The notes: generated from the letters alone by a model not told the origin. 64,000 bases of DNA from Bacteroidota bacterium (GCA_023480735.1 JAMCXB010000043.1:76750-140749); one strand, 5' to 3'; counted from the first letter of the stretch, positions 4,771-10,437 are shown. Numbers and translations: made by a program.

Positions 4771-4876
4771 AATTCCGGACTAATATAACGCCCAAGTCCC
4801 TCAACAAAAAGTGAAAATTCTTGAACATTATGAGAAGTCATTTTGATTTTTGAATTCTTAGTATCCATATTCTTCT

Positions 4877-5131
4877 ATGTTCATCAAGATCAAGGTCCAT
4901 CCGAATTCAAAGAAGGACGTAGTGGTGCGAAAGGGGAGCGATAGTTTCGAAGTTTTTGTCAGGGCTAAGCCCACTGAGGGAAAGGCGAACGAGGCGACTT
5001 TGGATTCACTGAGTGAGTTTCTGAAAGTCCCACGGTCGAGATTGCGGCTGATCAGGGGCGCAACTGCGCGAAACAAGCTCGTCGAATTGTCTGATTGCCG
5101 CGGCGACCTTCTTAGTATGAAGAAGGGATGA
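4877..5131 (+). CDS. DUF167/YggU family protein
   Basis: An 84-residue protein of the YggU/DUF167 family, recognised by VHPNSKKD near the N-terminus, the central AKPTEGKANEA and the final part SRLRLIRGATARNKLVEL. The family is a small alpha/beta fold found in all domains of life; its biochemical function is not established. The length is typical. No strong ribosome site is seen before ATG 4877. It faces away from tRNA-Pro and is followed by a small membrane protein gene after 65 bases. Confidence 0.88.
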   Translation: MFIKIKVHPNSKKDVVVRKGSDSFEVFVRAKPTEGKANEATLDSLSEFLKVPRSRLRLIRGATARNKLVELSDCRGDLLSMKKG

Positions 5132-5196
5132 TAAAGTCTATCGCTTTCAAGGAAGGCCTGATTTTAAATAATCTGATAATAAGGCTAAATTAAAAG

Positions 5197-5445
5197 GTGA
5201 AAGAAATAGCGGCGCGGGCCATATCCTACATCTTCATGCCGACCACCTTTGCCATGGTCGCATTTCTTCTCCTGGCTTTCGGCCCGCAAGTACTTTTTGC
5301 ATTTCCAATCATTGGGGTTGTGGCTTGGGCTAGGATTGAACTTAAGGCGCATCCGACGGCGCAAGTAATCGCAGGTTCCGCGCTCGGAATTGTACTGACT
5401 GCAGCTCAGGCAGAAGCTTTTCTTAAATTTGCAGGGGGATACTAG
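5197..5445 (+). CDS. small membrane protein resembling the C-terminal end of PAP2 phosphatases
   Basis: An 82-residue protein with two or three hydrophobic stretches. The segment ARIELKAHPTAQVIAGSALG resembles the last catalytic motif of PAP2 lipid phosphatases (SRxxxxxHxxxD), keeping Arg and His but with Ala for Ser and Gln for Asp. The earlier PAP2 motifs are absent and the 65 bases upstream are too few to hold them, so this is a short relative or a decayed remnant rather than an active phosphatase. The start is GTG 5197; ATG 5236 is an alternative. Its stop overlaps the GTG of PolX by one base, so it is co-transcribed with it. The PAP2 link is an inference from one motif. Confidence 0.55.
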   Translation: MKEIAARAISYIFMPTTFAMVAFLLLAFGPQVLFAFPIIGVVAWARIELKAHPTAQVIAGSALGIVLTAAQAEAFLKFAGGY

Positions 5446-7169
5446 TGGATAAGAAACAGATTATCGGAGCGCTGGAGGAGATATCTTCTCTGCTGGAACT
5501 GAAGGGAGAAGACAAGTTCAAGGTAACTGCATATTCCAGAGCCGCACGGTCAATCAGCCGGTCCACTCTGGACGTCGTGGATCTTATTGAGAAGGGCGAA
5601 GCGAAGAAAATTCCCGGAGTTGGCGATGCGCTCTCGAAGAAACTTACGGAGCTGGTAGAAACCGGCAGACTCGGCTACCTGGAAGATCTCAGGAATTCAT
5701 TTCCGGCGGGACTCCTCGGCTTATTCGAAATACGAGGACTCGGTCCGAACAAAGTGCGGTCGCTTTACGAACAGCTCGATGTGAAATCTGTCTCCGAGCT
5801 GGAGTATGCATGCAATGAGAACAGGCTTTCCTCGCTAAAGGGGTTCGGAAAGAAGACGCAGGATAAGGTGCTTGCTGAAATAAGGAGAGTAAAGGCAAAC
5901 AGCGAATATCGTTTGCTGAATGTAATCCACGAGACTTCATTGCGTATTTCGCAGACGCTTGAAAAGCTGACGGGCGTAGAACGTTATCAATTTACGGGAA
6001 GTTACAGACGGAGACGCGAGACAATTCGAGACATCGATTGTGTAATCAACTTCAGGTCCGGCGAACGTGACAAACTTTTCGCTTCACTTCAGAGAATGAA
6101 GGGGGTGAAGGAGGTTAAGGATGTTCAGGATGACCTGGTATCCGTGATTTGGGAAAACGGCGTTCCGGTCGAATTCATTATAGTTAACAAGGCGGAGTAC
6201 CCATTTGCCGTTCTACATTCGACGGGAAGCAAAGATTTCTTCGGCAGGCTGAAAGAATACGCCTCATCTCGCGGATACAGTCTCGGGATGCGAGAGCTAA
6301 AGAAAGGAAGGGACAAGATCCGCTTTGAATCCGAAGAAGAAATTTTTGGTGAAATAGGACTTCAATTTGTTCCGCCGGAACTTCGTGACGATGAAGATGC
6401 GGTGACAGCGGCGTCAAAAGGAGAGATACCCGAGCTCGTAAAGGTGGAGGACATTCTTGGTCTCTTTCACATTCATACGAATTGGAGTGATGGGGCCGAC
6501 TCACTCGAAGCCATGATTGCCGGGGCTCGGAATTTGGGCCTTCGTTATCTGGGATTGAGCGATCATAGCAAGGCCGCCTTCTACGCCAACGGTCTGGATG
6601 AAAAGCGTTTAAAGGAGCAAGCCGGCGCAGTCGAGAAATTTAACAGTGAGCATGAAGACTTTCTGGTCTTCAAAGGGAGCGAAGTTGATATTCTGGCCGA
6701 CGGTAAGTTAGACTTCAGTGACACTGCGCTAAAGAAACTTGATTTTTCCGTGGGGTCCGTTCATAGCAAGCTGAACATGAAGAAAGAGGAAGCGACAAAA
6801 CGGCTGGTGAGCGCTCTGAAGAATCCGTATTTGACGTTCCTCGGTCACATGACCGGTAGGTTGCTGCTCGGCAGAGATGGTTACGAAGTCGATATAGACG
6901 AAGTTATCAAGACGGCCGCTCGCAACAGAAAAGTTATTGAGATAAACGCTAATCCTCACCGTCTCGACATTGACTGGCGGCACTTGAAGAAAGCAAAGGC
7001 AGCGGGAGTAAAATTCTCGATTAATCCGGATGCCCATTCCGTCGCGGGATTAGCTGATTTCATTTACGGGGTATTCATTGCCAGGAAGGGATGGCTGACG
7101 AAGGAAGATCTGTTGAATACTATGAGCGCGGACCAAGTGAAGAAATTTCTGGATGATGCCAAAAGTTAA
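5445..7169 (+). CDS. polX: DNA polymerase X family protein with PHP domain (PolX)
   Basis: A 574-residue bacterial PolX. The first part has helix-hairpin-helix segments (IPGVGDALSKKL near 56-67, then a GLG and a KGFGKKT loop). The polymerase palm carries GSYRRRRETIRDID at 185-198, giving catalytic Asp196 and Asp198; the third acidic position seems to be Glu243 (VPVEF) where Asp is usual. The C-terminal PHP domain begins near residue 340 with FHIHTNWSDG and continues with SDHS, GSEVDIL, GSVHS, GHMTG, NANPHRLD and NPDAHS, the metal ligands of a 3'-5' exonuclease. Bacterial PolX fills small gaps in base-excision repair. It starts at GTG 5445, overlapping the previous stop. Confidence 0.92.
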   Translation: MDKKQIIGALEEISSLLELKGEDKFKVTAYSRAARSISRSTLDVVDLIEKGEAKKIPGVGDALSKKLTELVETGRLGYLEDLRNSFPAGLLGLFEIRGLGPNKVRSLYEQLDVKSVSELEYACNENRLSSLKGFGKKTQDKVLAEIRRVKANSEYRLLNVIHETSLRISQTLEKLTGVERYQFTGSYRRRRETIRDIDCVINFRSGERDKLFASLQRMKGVKEVKDVQDDLVSVIWENGVPVEFIIVNKAEYPFAVLHSTGSKDFFGRLKEYASSRGYSLGMRELKKGRDKIRFESEEEIFGEIGLQFVPPELRDDEDAVTAASKGEIPELVKVEDILGLFHIHTNWSDGADSLEAMIAGARNLGLRYLGLSDHSKAAFYANGLDEKRLKEQAGAVEKFNSEHEDFLVFKGSEVDILADGKLDFSDTALKKLDFSVGSVHSKLNMKKEEATKRLVSALKNPYLTFLGHMTGRLLLGRDGYEVDIDEVIKTAARNRKVIEINANPHRLDIDWRHLKKAKAAGVKFSINPDAHSVAGLADFIYGVFIARKGWLTKEDLLNTMSADQVKKFLDDAKS

Positions 7170-7443
7170 ATTTGTGCCTTTAAGTAAAGAGGTCGAAATA
7201 AAAAAGGGAGAGACGCTCTTCAAAGCCGCCCGTGTTAACGGAGTCCCGATAGGAAGTTCATGCCGGGGAGATTGTATTTGCGGCTGGTGCAAAGTGGAAG
7301 TACTGGATGGGATGGACAATCTTTCGCAGCCGTCGGAATGTGAGAAGAAACTCATGTCGAGAGGAAATTACGGACTGAATGAGCGGGTGGCATGCACAAC
7401 AATGGTGTTCGGAGACGTGAGCATTACAACGGGGTACTGGTAG
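7153..7443 (+). CDS. [2Fe-2S] ferredoxin
   Basis: A 96-residue ferredoxin of the beta-grasp [2Fe-2S] type. The cluster ligands lie in SSCRGDCICGWCKVEV (a C-x5-C-x2-C spacing with one additional Cys) and in VACTT near the C-terminus. This spacing is that of adrenodoxin-like rather than plant-type ferredoxins. It would carry single electrons in the cytoplasm; the partner is unknown. The gene overlaps the end of PolX by 17 bases and its stop overlaps the GTG of the ubiquitin-like gene, so it belongs to a tight group with the next two genes. Confidence 0.9.
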   Translation: MMPKVKFVPLSKEVEIKKGETLFKAARVNGVPIGSSCRGDCICGWCKVEVLDGMDNLSQPSECEKKLMSRGNYGLNERVACTTMVFGDVSITTGYW

Positions 7444-7694
7444 TGCAGGTCTTTATTTGTAAAGGCTTCTCCGGGGAAATCTTGAGAATGGAAATCGATG
7501 CGGAAAGTACCGTGGAAGACCAAAAGGCAAAGTTAGCCTCCAAAATGTTTGGCTGGAGTGACGGAGACGGCTCCTACGGGCTAATCAATGTAACCAAAAG
7601 GTTTGAATATTCGCCGGACGACATCATTAAGGAAAACACATCGGAGAACGATGTTCTCCTGATAATAAATTCAAACAACTCTTCACGGTGTTAA
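7443..7694 (+). CDS. ubiquitin-like beta-grasp small protein
   Basis: An 83-residue protein. The ORF track begins at ATG 7392 inside the ferredoxin, but the GTG at 7443, overlapping the ferredoxin stop by one base, gives MQVFICKGFSGEILRMEID and is preferred. The sequence lines up by eye with ubiquitin: MQVF against MQIF at the first strand, VEDQKAKLASK against IENVKAKIQDK in the helix, and a closing NDVLLII strand. There is no C-terminal Gly-Gly; it ends in SSRC, so classical conjugation would need processing or does not occur. It stands between two [2Fe-2S] protein genes, suggesting a redox or sulfur-related role, which is inference. I cannot name a known family for it. Confidence 0.65.
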   Translation: MQVFICKGFSGEILRMEIDAESTVEDQKAKLASKMFGWSDGDGSYGLINVTKRFEYSPDDIIKENTSENDVLLIINSNNSSRC

Positions 7695-7697
7695 GAT

Positions 7698-8078
7698 ATG
7701 AGATACATTAGGCACATCTTTATTTGTACTAACAAAAGAAAAGAGGACGATCCCAAGGGCTCCTGCGCGCAGAAAGGGAGCGAAGAGATTCGCGATATCT
7801 TCAAGAAAGAGCTGCATGCGCGCGGTTTGAAGACAAAAGTGCGCGCAAACAAATCAGGTTGTCTGGACGTTTGTGAACATGGGCCGAATGTCGTCATCTA
7901 TCCGGAGGGAGTCTGGTATAGTCACGTGACGAAAGATGACGTGGTCGAAATCATAGAGAAACACATTATCGGCGGCAAAGTGATTGAGCGGCTGCTGTTG
8001 AACGACCCGAGGTACAAGCCCGATAAAATGGCCTATCCTCCGATGAAAACGCAGGAAGTCAAACCTTCTGTCGGCTGA
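7698..8078 (+). CDS. thioredoxin-like [2Fe-2S] ferredoxin
   Basis: A 126-residue protein of the thioredoxin-fold [2Fe-2S] family (related to the NuoE C-terminal part and to Aquifex ferredoxin). It begins RHIFICTNKR, has the first cysteine pair as C-x12-C (ending GSCAQKGS) and the second as SGCLDVCEHGP (C-x3-C), then VVIYPEGVWYSHV, which is characteristic. It probably transfers electrons or serves as a cluster scaffold in the cytoplasm. It starts three bases after the ubiquitin-like gene and closes the trio. A CGGCTG/CAGCCG inverted repeat lies just downstream (about 8091-8116) without a T-run, a possible weak terminator. Confidence 0.9.
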   Translation: MRYIRHIFICTNKRKEDDPKGSCAQKGSEEIRDIFKKELHARGLKTKVRANKSGCLDVCEHGPNVVIYPEGVWYSHVTKDDVVEIIEKHIIGGKVIERLLLNDPRYKPDKMAYPPMKTQEVKPSVG

Positions 8079-8237
8079 AGAACTCAAATCGGCTGTTGTT
8101 CCTTACCCCCCAGCCGTGGGGAGATCGTCTGGCTTGCAGCGAATATCGCTCCTTCCTAAGTTTAAGAAACAGGTTGCTACCGGATATAACCTCCTCAGAA
8201 AGCCTGACGATTGTGCAACTAAGAAACGGGGGAAGTT

Positions 8238-9506
8238 ATGAAGAGCAGTCTCAGAATAGTTTCAGTCGGTCTTTCCATTGCCATTGCGGGATTATGTTAT
8301 GGTTGCAGCGATGTGACCTCGCCACACAATGGAGTTTCTGGTCCGAATCCACCAAGCAGCTCTACCGTGAAGAAGGTCGAATCTGCAAACAACTCTTTCT
8401 CCACCTCGCTCTTCGATCAATTGGCCGCCCAGGAACAGGGGAAGAATTTCTTCATCTCACCATTCAGCGTTTCTATGGCTCTTGCAATGACGCTAAATGG
8501 TGCCGCCGGGCAAACTTACAGCGACATGCAACGGACGCTCGGGCTGAGCGGCCTTTCGAACGAACAAATCAACCAAGCCTACCAGAACCTGATGACGACG
8601 TTCAGCAGTCTTGATCCAAGCGTGAAGTTCGATATCGCCAATTCGATCTGGTATAGGAATACATTTGCAGTCGAGGACAGCTTTCTTGACGTGGACTCCA
8701 CTTATTTCGATGCAAGGGTCATTGCCGTCGATTTCAGCAGCGCGAGCGCTGCTGAAATCATAAACTCCTGGGTCAGCGACAAGACAGATAACAAGATCCA
8801 GAGCATAATTCAGCCGCCGATTGATCCGTCTACGGTGATGTTTCTAATCAACGCCCTGTATTTCAATGGAACCTGGAAGTACACTTTCGATTCGAAGAAC
8901 ACGAAGCCTGAAACATTCTATCTGGCGAACGGCTCCACAGAATCAGATTCCATGATGGTGGTTCATGACACGATCGATTATTACTCTGACCAGAGTTTTA
9001 CGGCAGTTGAACTTCCCTATGGCGACGGTGATTACAGCATGCTTATTCTGCTCCCCACTAATGCAGCATCGGCAGTGAACACAATTGGCACACTGAGTCA
9101 GGGTGAAGTCAACAGCATTGTTGCCGGATTGAAGCCTGAAGATGTGCAGCTAACAATGCCGAAGTTCAAGGTGAAGTACTCGACGAAGTTGAACGGTGTT
9201 CTCTCTCAAATGGGTATGGGAATCGCCTTTTCAGACGGGGCGAATTTCACGCGGATTAACCCAGCAGGCGGACTATACATCTCTGAGGTGCTGCACAAAA
9301 CTTATATTGACGTAAATGAACAGGGAACCGAGGCAGCTGCGGTAACGGTGGTCACAATTGGGACAACAGTTGTAATCGGAGGGCATAGCGGACCGATAAT
9401 GGTTGATGTCGACAGGCCCTTCGCGTTCCTGATCAAAGAGAACCGCGACAATACAATTCTGTTCATGGGTGCTGTGGCGCAGCCAAGTGTTGAAGTCACG
9501 AACTGA
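8238..9506 (+). CDS. serpin family protease inhibitor, exported
   Basis: A 422-residue serpin. The N-terminus is a signal sequence ending in LCYGCSDVTSP; Cys near residue 23 could be lipidated although the lipobox is imperfect. The body shows SPFSVSMALAMTLNGAAG, FLINALYFNGTWK and the C-terminal DRPFAFLIKE. The reactive-centre hinge EQGTEAAAVTVV has the small residues needed for loop insertion, so it should be inhibitory. By alignment to antitrypsin P1 falls at or near Thr in VVTIGTTVVIGG, but the loop appears about six residues longer, so the target protease cannot be predicted. The gene has its own GGGGGAAG ribosome site and stands alone between ferredoxin and endonuclease III genes. Confidence 0.93.
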   Translation: MKSSLRIVSVGLSIAIAGLCYGCSDVTSPHNGVSGPNPPSSSTVKKVESANNSFSTSLFDQLAAQEQGKNFFISPFSVSMALAMTLNGAAGQTYSDMQRTLGLSGLSNEQINQAYQNLMTTFSSLDPSVKFDIANSIWYRNTFAVEDSFLDVDSTYFDARVIAVDFSSASAAEIINSWVSDKTDNKIQSIIQPPIDPSTVMFLINALYFNGTWKYTFDSKNTKPETFYLANGSTESDSMMVVHDTIDYYSDQSFTAVELPYGDGDYSMLILLPTNAASAVNTIGTLSQGEVNSIVAGLKPEDVQLTMPKFKVKYSTKLNGVLSQMGMGIAFSDGANFTRINPAGGLYISEVLHKTYIDVNEQGTEAAAVTVVTIGTTVVIGGHSGPIMVDVDRPFAFLIKENRDNTILFMGAVAQPSVEVTN

Positions 9507-9720
9507 AGGGCCACTGAACTTGTTCCCAATGCGGTCGCCTCGCCGCTCAGAGTAATAAGGAATCGATGGGGAGTGTGAATTCCGAGGGATTTGAAAAGTC
9601 GTTAGCGCAAGAAATCCGAAGAGGTGCAATCATATTAGGGGCTTGCCCTGCTCATAAGTCTGAGTTTGCCTAAGCAACCCCTGTTAGCTAAATTGACGTG
9701 CACAAAGACTGCTTGATGAT

Positions 9721-10437
9721 TTGAAAACTACAAATGCTGCTGCACAAAGAAAGCTGAAACCGGCCGATCCTGTGGAGAAAGCTCGTGCGCATAAGATATA
9801 TTCCTTGCTTGCGAGAGAGTATCCGGACGCTAAGGCTGCGTTGAACTTCAACACTCCCTTCGAGCTTCTCGTTGCCACGATACTGTCGGCACAGTGTACT
9901 GACGCTCGCGTGAACATGGTGACGCCCGGTCTCTTCAGGAAGTATCCATCGCCTGAGAGCTTCGCCAGCGCGGTCCAGGCCGAATTGGAACCGGACATAA
10001 AATCGACGGGGTTTTACCGCCAGAAGGCGAAATCACTGCTAAGCTGTAGCCGGTCGTTAGTCGAGAAGTTCGGCGGACAGGTCCCGAAGACTATGGAGGA
10101 ATTACTGACTCTAGGCGGCGTAGGGCGGAAGACGGCGAATGTGCTTCTTGGAAATGCGTTCGGTATTCCCGGGATAGCCGTTGATACGCATGTCGGCAGG
10201 CTCGCCCAGCGACTTGGATTGAGCAAAGACGAAGATCCAACAAAAATTGAATTCGCTCTGATGGAACTGTTTCCGAAAGACCACTGGACGCAGCTCTGTC
10301 ATTTATTCATGTCTCATGGAAGGAAGGTTTGTGTGTCACGCCTACCGAAATGTGAGGTGTGCTGCGTGAGCCATTTATGTCCATCGGCATTCAAGTTTTC
10401 AAAGAGTGGTGATTTGAAAAAGAAGAAAGGAAAGTAG
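9721..10437 (+). CDS. nth: endonuclease III (DNA glycosylase/AP lyase)
   Basis: A 238-residue endonuclease III that removes oxidised pyrimidines and cleaves the abasic site. The helix-hairpin-helix with catalytic Lys is seen in TLGGVGRKTANVLLG, the catalytic Asp in VDTHVGR, and the [4Fe-4S] cluster ligands in CVSRLPKCEVCCVSHLC (C-x6-C-x2-C-x5-C). The start is TTG 9721 with no clear ribosome site; the first 20 residues are an extension of basic character compared with the E. coli enzyme, so a later start is possible. It is followed after one base by the MqnD-like gene, indicating co-transcription. Confidence 0.95.
   Translation: MKTTNAAAQRKLKPADPVEKARAHKIYSLLAREYPDAKAALNFNTPFELLVATILSAQCTDARVNMVTPGLFRKYPSPESFASAVQAELEPDIKSTGFYRQKAKSLLSCSRSLVEKFGGQVPKTMEELLTLGGVGRKTANVLLGNAFGIPGIAVDTHVGRLAQRLGLSKDEDPTKIEFALMELFPKDHWTQLCHLFMSHGRKVCVSRLPKCEVCCVSHLCPSAFKFSKSGDLKKKKGK

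Follow-up and report, generated by a model that had tools for sequence, protein, structure and literature searches.

A predicted ubiquitin-fold protein without a Gly-Gly tail, encoded between two [2Fe-2S] ferredoxins in Bacteroidota

What might a ubiquitin-like protein do when its gene lies between the genes of two [2Fe-2S] ferredoxins? This question is raised by a 64,000-nucleotide stretch of DNA from a Bacteroidota bacterium (GCA_023480735.1, JAMCXB010000043.1:76750-140749; henceforth the window, with positions counted from its first letter). An earlier note, made from the sequence by eye, had described an 83-residue product starting at GTG 7443 as ubiquitin-like and tightly coupled to both ferredoxin genes, and had proposed that the three proteins form one electron-transfer or sulfur-handling module with the beta-grasp protein as its adaptor. 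We refer to the three products, in gene order, as FER2, UBL and FD4. The three open reading frames were confirmed, and their surroundings are as follows.

5445..7169, + strand: PolX-type DNA polymerase beta/PHP protein, preceding FER2 as a conserved neighbour in the window's genus and family f13
7156..7443, + strand: FER2, adrenodoxin/Isc-type [2Fe-2S] ferredoxin, 95-96 aa (Pfam Fer2, PDB 1i7h, cysteine motif)
7443..7694, + strand: UBL, predicted stand-alone ubiquitin-fold (five-strand beta-grasp) protein, 83 aa (homologs, AlphaFold2, Foldseek, dN/dS)
7698..8078, + strand: FD4, thioredoxin-fold [2Fe-2S] ferredoxin of the Aquifex aeolicus Fd4 type, 126 aa (PDB 1f37, NCBIfam)
8238..9506, + strand: serpin-family lipoprotein gene between FD4 and Nth (family named from sequence)
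9721..10437, + strand: Nth, endonuclease III, conserved downstream neighbour of FD4 (named by homology and gene order)

The end of the PolX gene overlaps the start of FER2 by 14-17 nt. The serpin gene, which separates FD4 from Nth in the window, is probably not part of the three-gene unit; such a gene lies between FD4 and nth in G000, G002, G005, G006 and G010 and is missing there in other genomes of the genus. A scan of positions 4800-9800 for promoters and terminators found no excess over shuffled sequences.

Identity of the ferredoxins and predicted fold of UBL

FER2 starts at ATG 7153 or 7156, with homologs favouring 7156. It matches the Pfam Fer2 profile (9e-12) and is closest, among proteins in the PDB, to ferredoxins of the Isc/adrenodoxin type (1i7h at 3.5e-8). 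All four cluster cysteines are present (C37-x5-C43-x2-C46 plus C81), and the C-x5-C-x2-C...C pattern together with the profile match places FER2 in the adrenodoxin/Isc type, at a score below the Isc equivalog cut-off of NCBIfam. In a PDB profile search FD4 matched the A. aeolicus [2Fe-2S] ferredoxin 1f37 at 3.4e-25, and its four cluster cysteines (C10, C23, C55 and C59) align with those of 1f37; it also matched the NCBIfam model fdxn_Clost at 2.8e-29, which is below that model's cut-off. FD4 has a thioredoxin-fold sequence, and its four ligands match those of 1f37 in position; it is clearly homologous to A. aeolicus Fd4 and the Shethna-type thioredoxin-fold ferredoxins, from which it differs in being co-encoded with FER2, UBL and often nth. 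Both ferredoxins are thus of the types that had been read from the sequence by eye.

UBL starts at GTG 7443, overlapping the FER2 stop codon (TAGTG), and this start is correct because homologs have an ATG at the same position. Single homologs were found in 13 of 41 related genomes (E-values from 6.5e-52 to 5e-8), and the two closest copies have a dN/dS of about 0.10-0.15; UBL is a real, conserved protein. Alignments of 13 and then 19 members have invariant positions that include G8, G11, N49, E55, Y56 and D70. The protein has one cysteine in the first strand (Cys6) and one at its very end (Cys83), where the sequence reads ...NSNNSSRC; as the earlier note had stated, there is no Gly-Gly. UBL had no significant match to any Pfam or NCBIfam model. 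We rejected a foreign origin of the gene, as its composition is unremarkable (GC 0.44 and GC3 0.55 vs. a GC of 0.49 for the window) and its tree follows families. A degenerate copy of FER2, which is also a beta-grasp protein, was likewise rejected: profile comparison of the two gave a probability of 0.5%, with no sequence support.

The resemblance to ubiquitin was borne out by structure prediction. An AlphaFold2 model built from a 13-row alignment (mean pLDDT 87.7, pTM 0.77, with the C-terminal tail modelled at low confidence) has strands at residues 2-7 and 13-17, a helix at 24-36, strands at 45-49 and 71-76 and a short strand near 54-55, i.e., the beta-beta-alpha-beta-beta-beta grasp topology of the ubiquitin fold. 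When this model was compared with the PDB using Foldseek, ubiquitin occurred throughout the top 50 matches and was the best of them (E = 7e-6, TM 0.71/0.79). A sequence profile search of UBL against all PDB chains gave E < 1 only for ubiquitins and engineered ubiquitin variants, with a best value of 0.02-0.03 that is non-significant. Given this weak sequence link, the fold call rests on structure prediction; UBL is a predicted five-strand beta-grasp protein, and we do not claim its descent from ubiquitin.

Gene order and distribution of UBL

When 84,980 species genomes were scanned for the conserved motif, relatives of UBL turned up only in Candidatus Kryptonium, Candidatus Kapaibacterium and allied uncultured Bacteroidota/Chlorobiota; because the scan used a single peptide motif, distant relatives may exist elsewhere. 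In a phylum-wide sample, 11 of 396 genomes had a match, one of them marginal. The UBL tree separates f1, f2 (97%) and Kapabacteria (100%) and so follows families, which argues for mainly vertical inheritance. Within-genus trees are weakly supported at deep nodes, so we make no claim as to the exact number of UBL losses. No paper on the family was found in the literature searched. UBL represents a new family of stand-alone ubiquitin-fold proteins of the non-conjugating kind, and its gene context is unreported: a conserved bacterial family absent from Pfam and NCBIfam and tied to [2Fe-2S] electron carriers.

Synteny of FER2-UBL-FD4 extends to each of the six Kryptonium-family genomes in which UBL was matched and, within the window's genus, to 4 of 13 genomes. 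The tight coupling noted earlier recurs in these trios: all ten have -1 to +1 nt between the FER2 stop and the UBL start, with varying stop-start junctions (TAGTG, TGATG, TAAATG or TGAAATG), and FD4 begins -11 to +25 nt after the UBL stop. Kapabacteria family f5 has the arrangement FER2-lipoprotein-UBL-FD4-pyrophosphatase, with two exceptions (G022 is without FD4, and the stretch examined in G436 showed no FER2). The earlier note knew of no bacterial ubiquitin-like system with such a layout; nor is it among the ubiquitin-like contexts described in the accessible parts of two surveys from 2006 and 2007, which cover ThiS, MoaD, RnfH, TmoB, YukD and polyUbl (PMC1779556, PMC1949818).

The three genes do not always occur together. 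In nine genomes of the window's genus the FER2-FD4 pair stands without UBL, with a gap of 18-151 nt between the two genes; the pair also lacks UBL in G031 and G040 of family f13. UBL loss in the nine sister genomes is clean: an all-frame profile search for a decayed UBL in these gaps returned E-values of 0.38 or worse. Conversely, UBL occurs without detectable FER2 or FD4 in at least seven Kapabacteria genomes (G233, G248, G345, G306, G392, G422 and G423), and the UBL-carrying genomes G025, G198 and G424 have only distant relatives of FD4. In the ferredoxin-less Kapabacteria, UBL adjoins genes for a Sir2 deacetylase and acpS, an arfB-like gene or a gene for a CsgG/LpoB/PelC-like lipoprotein. 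Neither of the two outcomes that the earlier note had named as refuting arose: a beta-grasp fold is predicted, and the trio is conserved in the Kryptonium family and part of the window's genus. Since each is found without the other, UBL can be at most an accessory of the ferredoxin pair.

UBL presence and absence within a single genus amounts to a natural experiment. We found no residues in FER2 or FD4 that separate genomes with UBL from those without it. Within this genus UBL diverges much faster than both ferredoxins; specifically, its identity to the G004 copy is 48%, vs. 80% and 75% for the two ferredoxins.

Some further features of the Kapabacteria loci may be recorded here. In several (L028, L030, L031 and L033), a Sir2-family deacetylase gene followed by acpS lies directly 3' of UBL. 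In families f5 and f23, an envelope lipoprotein of about 350-380 aa with no Pfam match is encoded directly upstream of UBL (L093 4811-5962, L094 4397-5473, L034 3826-4974 and L023 460-1494). Its model resembles domains of the CsgG/LpoB/PelC/TolB type, and all 13 Kapabacteria genomes with UBL that were searched have a homolog, as against none of the Kryptoniales genomes searched; as this is an envelope protein, its tie to UBL is probably one of co-expression only. In G032 the UBL open frame (L093 5968-6480) is extended at its N-terminus by a His- and Asp-rich stretch (HDDDHDHDDDHDHDD...), which is possibly metal-binding.

Candidate functions and known ubiquitin-like systems

We tentatively favour the reading that UBL does not undergo conjugation but, as a ubiquitin-fold protein, docks onto or helps to assemble the ferredoxin pair or the redox enzyme that the pair serves. 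The stand-alone protein would share one message with FER2 and FD4 where the genes stand in the window's order, and would act non-covalently on one or both ferredoxins, presumably by physical binding, or on their enzyme; its role would be accessory, since sister genomes keep the FER2-FD4 pair without it. This mode of action is likened to what is supposed for TmoB and RnfH in other redox complexes. The same surveys describe TmoB, RnfH and YukD as beta-grasp proteins that stand alone and for which a role in assembly or as an adaptor has been proposed (PMC1949818, PMC1779556). If the analogy is right, UBL works like these proteins yet is a member of none of them: none of 19 UBL members matched the Pfam TmoB, RnfH or YukD models at E-values up to 5. 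The predicted beta-grasp with its Foldseek match to ubiquitin and the near-zero FER2-UBL spacing in all ten trios are consistent with docking, as is family f5, where UBL stays beside FD4 with FER2 upstream despite the intervening lipoprotein gene. Against it stand the persistence of the pair without UBL and of UBL without both ferredoxins, the faster divergence of UBL and the lack of any FER2 or FD4 residue that tracks its presence. That the three proteins form one electron-transfer or sulfur module, as proposed earlier, is an inference, and a sulfur-carrier role for UBL has no support.

The docking reading is closely rivalled by another, which we regard as a serious possibility: UBL may have a function of its own, unrelated to the ferredoxins, and simply be encoded in one operon with them in Kryptoniales and Kapabacteria f5. 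The Kapabacteria in which UBL stands beside unrelated genes, with both ferredoxins missing, are what such independence would lead one to expect, as is the survival of FER2-FD4 after clean loss of UBL. However, it sits poorly with the FER2-UBL adjacency, at -1 to +1 nt, in all ten Kryptoniales trios, and with the recurrence of the FER2...UBL-FD4 order in a different order of the class.

It is also conceivable, though unlikely, that UBL is a thiol or metal protein, itself redox-active beside the ferredoxins, in which a disulfide, persulfide or metal site is built from the beta-1 and tail cysteines (C-His in Kapabacteria). Of 24 UBL members, 16 have a cysteine at the end of strand 1, and each of these has a tail cysteine too; the latter is found in only 1 of the 8 others, and the tail reads DGxxCHK in most Kapabacteria. 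Strands beta-1 and beta-5 are parallel neighbours in the ubiquitin fold, so the two cysteine sites could be close enough for such a site. But the sequences are related, so that their covariation is not independent and is an observation rather than a test; the tail is a low-confidence part of the model; and both cysteines are missing in 6 out of 6 Kryptonium-family UBLs and in G007, where the trio is kept.

That UBL is conjugated to proteins or carries sulfur, like ubiquitin, ThiS, MoaD or Bil, is very improbable. These proteins have the core fold in common with UBL, ubiquitin itself giving the strongest Foldseek matches, but UBL has no Gly-Gly, JAB partner or dedicated E1. Gly-Gly is absent from the C-terminus of 24 out of 24 members, and the C-terminus is variable. 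The earlier note had advised looking for E1-like or JAB genes elsewhere in the genome. Prok-JAB had no match in the window's assembly, which is about 90% complete, while the control search matched in 9 of 14 genomes. One full E1-like gene is present, which speaks for conjugation, but it is a distant MoeB-rhodanese gene with a MoaD-like partner of its own: ahead of it in the open frame stands a MoaD-like sequence that ends in ...AGG. The tail and the missing JAB led us to reject a conjugation or sulfur-carrier system for UBL.

Least probable of all is that UBL serves a bacterial multicomponent monooxygenase as its TmoB-type subunit, FER2 being the ferredoxin of that enzyme. TmoB (toluene-4-monooxygenase system protein B) is likewise a stand-alone beta-grasp protein of about 84 aa with no Gly-Gly, and lies in a redox operon with a [2Fe-2S] ferredoxin (PMC1779556). 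UBL differs in its neighbours and in having no Pfam TmoB match, and the PF02332 hydroxylase had no match in the genus's four UBL-carrying genomes (the window's genome, G002, G004 and G007) or in G032, which excludes such an oxygenase subunit for the window's genus. A diiron hydroxylase does occur in 3 out of 3 Kryptonium-family genomes searched, but on another contig than UBL and with a Phenol_monoox protein, to which UBL is unrelated, as its small subunit. This reading is largely refuted. The Kryptonium-family diiron multicomponent monooxygenase (L156 61-3379, and L162) comprises two Phenol_Hydrox proteins, an MmoB/DmpM coupling protein and Phenol_monoox.

Three other systems resemble UBL in part. 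RnfH is also small, stand-alone and ubiquitin-like, and in some proteobacteria it lies beside an electron-transport complex, with a proposed role in assembly or stability (PMC1949818); unlike RnfH, UBL has no Pfam RnfH match, and we recognised no rnf or smpB among its neighbours. YukD shares with UBL a non-conjugating single ubiquitin-fold domain and a conserved operon, but UBL has no match to its Pfam model and no type VII (ESAT-6) secretion genes were recognised nearby. The Bacteroides fragilis ubiquitin BfUbb, whose structures 8hm2 and 8hm3 are among the top 50 Foldseek matches, also has a ubiquitin fold, comes from Bacteroidota and ends in Cys rather than Gly (PMC3352274). However, BfUbb shares 63% identity with human ubiquitin and is probably of horizontal origin and exported by way of a signal peptide (PMC3352274), whereas UBL is about 24% identical over the structural alignment, is inherited mainly vertically and has no signal-peptide-like extension.

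Linkage of FD4 to endonuclease III

FD4 is present in 131 out of 391 genomes of the class. In 27 neighbourhoods of FD4 surveyed outside the window's family and the Kryptonium family, nth lies downstream on the same strand in 17, at a distance of 200 nt or less in 14; it is absent after FD4 in the surveyed members of families f3, f11 and f5. The association of FD4 with the endonuclease III gene is old and extends over several families of the class. Upstream, PolX is found in the window's genus as well as in several genomes of f13 and f17.

Endonuclease III carries an iron-sulfur cluster. In E. coli, its gene nth comes after rsxE of an electron-transport operon (PMC8743547). Taken together, these two points make a redox link to base-excision repair plausible, and the FD4-nth linkage suggests a candidate redox partner for an iron-sulfur DNA-repair enzyme. 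A joint reading, which we regard as a long shot and for which the evidence is gene order, is that UBL, FER2 and FD4 form an unrecognised redox unit serving endonuclease III, with UBL as the docking factor; the service might consist in reducing, supplying or repairing the cluster of the enzyme. If true, this would define a bacterial base-excision-repair gene set, PolX-FER2-(UBL)-FD4-Nth.

The loci with FD4 and nth are the window (7698-8078 and 9721-10437), L087, L091, L092, L136, L141, L143, L145 and L146, and further L148, L149 and L152-L155, with FER2 and PolX often upstream.
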